Assembly (NCBI GenBank): GCA_009937205.1
Contig: JAACCR010000138.1
Location: 1 to 33,811 of the forward strand
Length of the DNA stretch: 33,811 bases
Reading direction: 5' to 3'
From: Methanobacteriota archaeon
GTDB taxonomy: Archaea > Thermoplasmatota > Poseidoniia > Poseidoniales > Poseidoniaceae
The position numbers and the translations under genes were made by a program. Shown here piece by piece: positions 27,052 to 30,417 of this stretch. The notes beneath the pieces are model-generated. The model worked only from the letters and a program-made list of their open reading frames with translations. It was not told where the DNA came from and did no database searches. The stretch's first letter is position 1. The number at the start of each line of letters is the position of its first letter.

Positions 27052-28299
27052 TCACATCCAAGGATACCGTAATATTGCTGCAAGTCCGCCAAATCCAAGC
27101 ATTAGTTGGGAGCCTTCCTCCGTATCAACCGAGATATATACAAGTTCAGTGTTGGATTTTACTGCCATTACACTCAATTCATCGATTAAAGAAACATTTT
27201 CTAGTTCCTTGGCCTTATCTCCAGAAACATCACAAGAAGGGCAATTCGGCATTACTTCCATGCGTCCAATTGTTATTTTCCATTCATTTCTACAGCCACC
27301 GCATTGGAGAGTTAGTGTATTCTTTCTCAATGCTTCTGAAATAAGTAATTTTTGAACTGCACCTTGGTCAAGCGCTTGCTTAACCATTTGTTCACCATAT
27401 GTTGCCTTCGGATGGGTTTTAATCAATTCGGAAAGGAATACATCCATGATTTTACGCTCAGCGTCAAGTTCTATTTCTCCCATCATCTGTCCAGCATTGC
27501 CGACCAATTCACGGATTCCACTGTCATTGGAATATCCTACATCAAAAGTGGTCTTAGCAATTTTTTTAACGATTTCGTGATGGAAATAATCATTCTTGAC
27601 AACGAAATCCTTGGTAGCGCCAGGACCTCCGACAATGATTGCTTGGATATTATCCAAATTTGGTAACCAGTAATCACAAGCATGCTCACTGGCACGCTTG
27701 AAGAACTTGTGCGCAGCCTCTTCAATAAGTCTCTCGAAACGTTGTGCTGATTGACCTCCTTGGCGGTGTTTACCCATGATATTGGAAACTAAATGCTCCT
27801 GAATGTGTATTCTTTTACCGGTGGCGATTCCAAATGCTGCTTCAGATCTATCAATTACGAATAATCCATATGATTTTTTGTCGATAAGCATATCTTCAAG
27901 TTGTGTTAATTCAAAAGTTGAATCACATCGGTAGCGAAATGACAAAAGTGGTTGAGGTGGGTTCTCAACTAAGACATTGATCATTCGGTTTCTATTATTT
28001 CCAACAATGATTGAACCGACGAATAAAGCGATACCGTTTTCTCCAGCATTTTTTATTTTAGAAAGTGAAGAAAGTGCGGAATCAATCGCTCCTTGGACAT
28101 TCTTACGGGTTCCTTTAGATTTGATATTTGCAGCTTGTCCGTGCTCATTTTGCAGTAGTTGCCGTGCATCGGATACTTGGCGGTCTGGTGGAATAATAAT
28201 ACTGACCAGTTCAGTGCCAAAGCCCTTCATTTCACGAAGGTCTTCCAATGCCATCTTGAGACGGAGTCGGCGAGAAGCAAGTTCAACATCATCTGACAC
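27052..28299 (-). CDS. prf1: Peptide chain release factor aRF1
   Basis: 'AANIKSKGTRKNVQ' NIKS motif; 'YRCDSTF' matches YxCxxxF; 'GKHRQGGQSAQRFERL' GGQ motif. Confidence 0.97.
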   Translation of the reverse strand: MSDDVELASRRLRLKMALEDLREMKGFGTELVSIIIPPDRQVSDARQLLQNEHGQAANIKSKGTRKNVQGAIDSALSSLSKIKNAGENGIALFVGSIIVGNNRNRMINVLVENPPQPLLSFRYRCDSTFELTQLEDMLIDKKSYGLFVIDRSEAAFGIATGKRIHIQEHLVSNIMGKHRQGGQSAQRFERLIEEAAHKFFKRASEHACDYWLPNLDNIQAIIVGGPGATKDFVVKNDYFHHEIVKKIAKTTFDVGYSNDSGIRELVGNAGQMMGEIELDAERKIMDVFLSELIKTHPKATYGEQMVKQALDQGAVQKLLISEALRKNTLTLQCGGCRNEWKITIGRMEVMPNCPSCDVSGDKAKELENVSLIDELSVMAVKSNTELVYISVDTEEGSQLMLGFGGLAAILRYPWM

Positions 28300-28501: not shown

Positions 28502-29209
28502 ATGACAAGTCGTCATATCGTTGCATTAGGAGGCAGTTTGTTGCGTCCGGAGGAATCCGAACAACGCAGTGCATGGTTCGGTCAACTTAGACAACTAGCA
28601 GTCCACTTAGAAGGTAATGGCCGAAGAGTTGGCATAGTCATAGGCGGAGGTCTTCCGGCAAGAGAGGCTATTGAATTAGCAAAAACTTGTGTTTCAGCAT
28701 CTGATAAATTAGACCAAGTTGGCATTGCAGCAACTCGGTTGAATGCAACAGTAATCCAGCAAGTATTGATTGATATCGGCTGTAGTGTAGCACCTTCAAT
28801 CCCTCATACTACTTCGGAGTCTGCTGAATTATTAGAAAAATACAATTTTGTGGTGATGGGTGGAACTACTCCGGGACATACAACAGATGCAGTGGCAGTT
28901 GCCTTTGCTAGAGATGCAGGTGCAAGGACTTGTATTATCGCAACAAATGTTAGTCATGTCTATGATAAAGACCCTAGGGAATTTGATGATGCTCAATCAT
29001 TGACGAAATTGACAATTGATCAGTAGGCAGAGATTACCGGAATAGGAGAACCACTTGCGCCAGGTGCTTCAGCGGTCATTGACCCAGTCGCAGTCGGTTG
29101 GGCAAAAGATTCATGCATCGATTTAGCGGTATTAGATGGGCGTCAAATATCAATATTAGAACAAGCATTAGATGGCCAACCATTCGATGGTACGCTAATA
29201 AATTCATGA
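28502..29209 (+). CDS. pyrH: UMP kinase (archaeal PyrH) with an in-frame TAG at 29024-29026
   Basis: 'IVALGGSLL', 'VGIVIGGGLPAREAIELAK', 'VVMGGTTPGHTTDAVAVAFARDAGA', 'NVSHVYDKDPR'. After the TAG the same frame reads 'AEITGIGEPLAPGASAVIDPVAVGWAKDSCIDLAVLDGRQISILEQALDGQPFDGTLINS' to TGA at 29207-29209. Confidence 0.9.
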
Positions 29210-29218
29210 GGTGATAAA

Positions 29219-29467
29219 ATGTCTGAATCAGCAAGTAATACGAAAAATTCACGCAATAGCAGCCGAGTACAGCCGCATAAGCATTGCAGGATTTGTCAAG
29301 AAGCGATTCCAACAAAAACAGAACCAAGAGTTTGCAAAAAAGAAGAGTGTATCACTAAGAATGAAAAAAATGAGAAGAATCAGAAACAAGTTAGGGTTCT
29401 AATGCTCATCTTCTTTGGCATATTCGCTCTACCATTTGTTGCCTCAATTGTATTACAACTACTCTGA
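29219..29467 (+). CDS. Small zinc-ribbon/TM protein, DUF2116-like
   Basis: 'HKHCRICQEAIPTKTEPRVCKKEECITKNEKNEKNQKQ' followed by one C-terminal TM helix. SD 'gaggtgat' upstream. Confidence 0.72.
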   Translation: MSESASNTKNSRNSSRVQPHKHCRICQEAIPTKTEPRVCKKEECITKNEKNEKNQKQVRVLMLIFFGIFALPFVASIVLQLL

Positions 29468-29470
29468 GAA

Positions 29471-29977
29471 TCAAGAATTTTGGAATTCTCCAAGTAATCC
29501 TTCAGCAGTTCCAGCAACTTGTTCAGTTTGTCCAGCAGCGGTTAGACGATCACCTAGTTTGTACAATTCTTTGAAAGCCTCTTCTATTGAACTCGTTTGC
29601 TTTAAGAATTGTATCGCAGGCCAACCACAGTCTATGATTCCTGGCTCTACTGTGCTTTCTTCAACCCATGCAGCGCATGACACGCCATGACATAGTGCAC
29701 TGAATTGTGATAGATCTAACCAAAATGTATTACGTTTACAAACTGGACAAGTTTTACACTCAATTGTTGATAGAACGGTCATTGCATCGTCTCCAACAAT
29801 ATCAATTTCCCAAATAACTATGCTTGCAGACTTTAAATTCATAAGTTCACTTTTCTTTAGGAAAGTGCGTAATACCTGCCAAGCAGTCTCTTCTGAACTA
29901 AAGCAGCCCATGCCTATAGCCTTGCCATCTGCTTCAACTGCAGTTGGAACAAATACGCGACTCGGAGTATCGGCCAT
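29471..29977 (-). CDS. Hypothetical protein with Cys-rich segment
   Basis: Start MADTPSRVFVPTAVEADG at 29977; 'CKTCPVCKRNTFWLDLSQFSALCHGVSC' possible metal site. Confidence 0.6.
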   Translation of the reverse strand: MADTPSRVFVPTAVEADGKAIGMGCFSSEETAWQVLRTFLKKSELMNLKSASIVIWEIDIVGDDAMTVLSTIECKTCPVCKRNTFWLDLSQFSALCHGVSCAAWVEESTVEPGIIDCGWPAIQFLKQTSSIEEAFKELYKLGDRLTAAGQTEQVAGTAEGLLGEFQNS

Positions 29978-30051
29978 TACAGCGCCCTTGATGCGAAGCC
30001 CTTCAATACTTATGCAAAAATATGCAATTAAACTTCTATTTGTCAAGCCGG

Positions 30052-30417
30052 TTATTGTGGACGGGACCATTCCATTTCAATGACTGGTAAGCCACCCGGG
30101 TGAGGTAGTGGTGCTTGTGGTTTTTCAATTCGTATTTTTATTTTACAAACCATTTGATTACTGGAGAGGTTTTTGATTATTCGTTCACACATTGTTTCCA
30201 TTAGTCCAATCGGTTTTTTAGCATCAATAATTTCAGCATCAATTGCGATTTGAATATCAGCATAATTCAGTGTATTTACTAACTTACCAGCAATGCTATG
30301 GTCTATTATTGTCGCCCATACAGTGAAATTGAAAGGTTGTTTTTCCTCATGTTCGAATTCATAATAGCCATGCTTGGCCATAACAGTATAATTCTCTAAA
30401 GCGACAGTGATAGTCAT
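30052..30417 (-). CDS. folB: Dihydroneopterin aldolase family protein
   Basis: 'ITVALENYTVMAKHGYYEFEHEEKQPFNFTVWATI', 'NYADI', 'LMETMCERIIKNL', 'IRIEKPQAPLP'. Confidence 0.88.
   Translation of the reverse strand: MTITVALENYTVMAKHGYYEFEHEEKQPFNFTVWATIIDHSIAGKLVNTLNYADIQIAIDAEIIDAKKPIGLMETMCERIIKNLSSNQMVCKIKIRIEKPQAPLPHPGGLPVIEMEWSRPQ

Follow-up and report, generated by a model that had tools for sequence, protein, structure and literature searches.

The window analysed here, a stretch of 33,811 nucleotides from a draft genome of the family Poseidoniaceae, carries on its forward strand a gene for an archaeal UMP kinase (pyrH) of the amino acid kinase fold, whose full frame (28502..29209) is interrupted by one in-frame stop codon. 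The frame opens with an ATG at 28502, encounters a TAG at 29024-29026, and beyond it stays open for 60 more sense codons (AEITGIGEPLAPGAS...LINS), with no change of frame, up to a TGA at 29207-29209. These 60 codons (29027..29206, forward strand) encode the C-terminus of UMP kinase and include no in-frame ATG, GTG or TTG. The 3' neighbour of pyrH, also on the forward strand, is an intact gene for a DUF2116 protein, a probable treble clef (29219..29467), while on the opposite strand the gene is adjoined by an intact gene for the peptide chain release factor aRF1 with eRF1 domains 1-3 (27052..28299, reverse strand).

An intact orthologue of the gene matches Pfam family PF00696 and scores 180 bits against the TIGR02076 model (pyrH_arch), whose cut-off is 158.05. 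The 174 residues upstream of the TAG score 145.6 bits against this model, which is under the cut-off, and the window's gene would qualify as a full-length family member only with an amino acid counted at the TAG. The solved archaeal UMP kinases 2j4j and 2ij9 align through the C-terminus, and the window's gene is 96% identical to its nearest orthologue over 235 residues, with no frameshift past the TAG. Given that homology continues beyond the TAG to the C-terminus in a single frame, the 60-codon continuation is not due to chance. The initial annotation had described a single TAG within a homologous frame extending 60 codons to the TGA, with no need to invoke a frameshift, and both its coordinates and this description proved exact.

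The residue expected at the interrupted position is clear from related genomes. Among 109 copies of pyrH from relatives, some of which derive from genomes counted twice because two collections were used, 108 specify Leu at the corresponding codon, the remaining copy specifies Phe, and none has a stop. All six of the closest relatives (90-96% identical) carry TTG at this site, such that the window differs from them by a T-to-A change at 29025, just as the initial annotation had supposed on proposing that the TAG replaces a Leu TTG codon. A whole-genome search located pyrH in 57 of 60 genomes of the genus, the window's own genome included, and only the window's genome (hereafter G000) has an interior stop; the other 56 matched genomes encode a full-length protein. 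We found no second pyrH in G000, so the gene is single copy there, and the intact paralogue that would have made the interrupted frame a plain pseudogene was not encountered. Searches of viral contigs for either the TTG or the TAG allele gave no match, and neither did a search of phage records.

In the decisive test, interior stop codons were compared between G000, which is fragmented (152 contigs) and 82% complete, and its closest relative among the genomes compared, G001. The comparison covered approximately 0.88 Mb of G000 and 0.84 Mb of G001, or about half of each genome, and was restricted to the longest non-overlapping frames that exhibit third-position divergence, since antisense frames otherwise inflate the stop counts. 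The 289 frames of G001 that were matched in G000 (107,642 codons) revealed 12 interior stops in G000 and no frameshifts. Two of these stops fall in frames that we consider spurious and dropped: a 222-residue frame at position 29688 of the window, which has no Pfam family and overlaps a real gene (29471-30070), and a 163-residue frame, judged from its sequence only. The remaining ten lie in conserved genes with Pfam families, and each differs by one base from the codon present in G001. In addition to pyrH (L175, TTG to TAG), the affected genes are a TFB (Y95, TAT to TAG), argF (S61, TCA to TAA), a Gfo/Idh/MocA oxidoreductase (S213, TCA to TAA), an FtsJ methyltransferase (E175, GAG to TAG), a DUF2240 gene (C24, TGC to TGA), an epimerase (K247, AAA to TAA), nadA (C335, TGC to TGA), pus10 (L285, TTA to TAA) and an FtsX permease (Q428, CAA to TAA). 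The nine stops other than that of pyrH are found at contig positions C77:3140, C72:1422, C152:14731, C142:26018, C142:32927, C82:5748, C130:518, C126:5101 and C104:19811. All three stop codons are represented (five TAA, three TAG and two TGA), and nine of the ten changes are transversions.

The reciprocal test, with 272 frames and 100,082 codons, yielded no convincing interior stop in G001. Its two weak candidates reside in a short frame that is only 82% identical and near a shifted N-terminus, and the Fisher P for the excess of stops in G000 is 0.002 with G001 counted as having zero and 0.011 with it counted as having one. Three of the other interrupted genes were also followed across the 60 genomes searched, and in each case the interior stop occurs in G000 alone: for ftsJ (TAG) among 56 matched genomes, for nadA (TGA) among 55, and for argF (TAA) among 42. 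The nadA gene of G000 is a fragment at a contig end. No intact second copy of nadA or argF was found in G000; an additional argF-like match there is a relative with 30% identity, which we rejected as an intact copy. G000 therefore holds like lesions in unrelated genes of one assembly that its relatives do not carry, as is expected of errors in a consensus sequence.

The number of stops can be translated into an approximate error rate. Random substitutions in the compared genes create a stop in 4.6% of cases, and under this model the ten stops correspond to approximately 217 errors, or 6.7e-4 per base. This rate predicts approximately 0.96 nonsense changes in the window, where one is observed. 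Differences between the window and G001 comprise 921 transitions and 457 transversions (kappa of approximately 4), and at a kappa of 4 the expected share of transversions is approximately 0.52, giving a probability of approximately 0.014 for at least nine among ten. The excess of transversions lends modest support to error over natural mutation. Five of the ten changes are C:G to A:T, but the codons that can be converted to stops by one change already favour this class, and for this reason we do not claim a specific damage process. Substitutions private to the window around pyrH are mainly transitions and, in this small test, resemble normal divergence, and thus errors at the inferred rate would be invisible outside the nonsense signal.

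With these observations in mind, we consider it very likely that the pyrH TAG stems from an erroneous base substitution in the consensus of the draft assembly rather than from a mutation carried by living cells, an interpretation drawn from sequence comparisons and resting chiefly on the nine other conserved genes that carry one-base stops of all three kinds without counterparts in relatives. The organism itself would most likely carry the Leu codon TTG at this site and possess a normal UMP kinase of full length, and the errors could stem from low coverage or from damage. A recent and true nonsense mutation that had become fixed or common in the population sampled, and that left pyrH a pseudogene, would also account for a TAG that stands in the assembled sequence one base away from TTG, in a single-copy gene whose remainder shows the strong conservation expected if the lesion arose very recently. 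We regard this as unlikely, however, given that UMP kinase is normally essential and has no second copy that we could find in G000, that nine more conserved genes, including nadA, argF, pus10 and a TFB, would need lesions as well, and that the ten lesions are mostly transversions and come without frameshifts. A broader version, in which the lesions are real and many recent nonsense alleles of core genes are tolerated through readthrough of all three stops or reflect a heavy load of dying cells, appears very improbable. It is conceivable that the lesion is real in pyrH alone and that the other nine are errors.

The initial annotation had listed error, recent nonsense mutation, suppression or pyrrolysine insertion, and a functional truncated enzyme as possibilities; an error arising from a single TTG-to-TAG change is the best supported of these, and the last two are opposed by several lines of evidence. 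Pyrrolysine decoding does occur in other Thermoplasmatota (PMC9723677), the pyrH frame stays open past the TAG, and an incomplete assembly could miss a tRNA, all of which would fit amber readthrough by a suppressor tRNA or by pyrrolysine. Even so, no PylS above the TIGR02367 cut-off was found in G000 or in the 60 genomes of the genus, with a positive control that passed in one of 14 genomes; weaker matches below the cut-off were assigned by score and spread to other class II synthetases. Likewise, no CUA anticodon is present among the 32 tRNAs found in the 82% of the genome that is represented, the anticodons having been read by ARAGORN for 28 and from Rfam alignments for four. ARAGORN missed two tRNA genes (G000:C15:25292-25393 and G000:C21:11140-11270) whose anticodon regions contain long insertions; judged from the Rfam alignment, these genes resemble those of tRNA-Tyr and tRNA-Met with introns. 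TAG is an ordinary terminator in G000, ending 16 of 245 genes (TAA ends 72 and TGA 157), compared with 13 of 245 in G001. All three stop codons thus end genes, and all three occur as lesions, TAA and TGA included, which is not the pattern of a reassigned stop codon. With an intact aRF1 gene adjoining pyrH as well, readthrough seems exceedingly improbable. We hold an equally dim view of a functional 174-residue UMP kinase or a two-piece enzyme. Most of the AA_kinase domain does lie within the first 174 residues, but the 60 lost residues are conserved in relatives, all 56 of the other matched genomes keep the full length, the solved archaeal enzymes reach through the lost segment, and no in-frame ATG, GTG or TTG was found after the TAG from which a second piece could be restarted. 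The loss of conserved residues and the lack of a restart codon make a working short or split enzyme unlikely.

The TAG is probably without biological significance. As a caution, however, G000 appears to contain a wrong base roughly every 1.5 kb, so that an isolated in-frame stop or an unusual residue in this assembly should not be taken as evidence for a pseudogene or recoding without reads. Comparing every stop codon of a whole assembly with those of a sister genome is a cheap way to tell such cases apart.

The window's gene resembles the known archaeal UMP kinase PyrH (TIGR02076, PF00696; solved structures 2j4j, 2ij9 and 2bmu) in its full-frame sequence, its length of approximately 235 residues, its single copy and its DUF2116 neighbour, and differs only by the TAG at codon 175. 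It shares with pyrrolysine recoding in archaea (PMC9723677) an in-frame TAG within a conserved frame, but differs in that no PylS or CUA tRNA was found in its genome, that other kinds of stop are present among the lesions, and that pyrH is not a methylamine methyltransferase. Our search for literature on nonsense errors in metagenome-assembled genomes returned no matching report. When set beside spurious stops in draft metagenome assemblies, G000 is alike in its scattered one-base nonsense changes, which affect unrelated conserved genes, involve all three stops and are not shared by relatives, and we saw no difference between the two.
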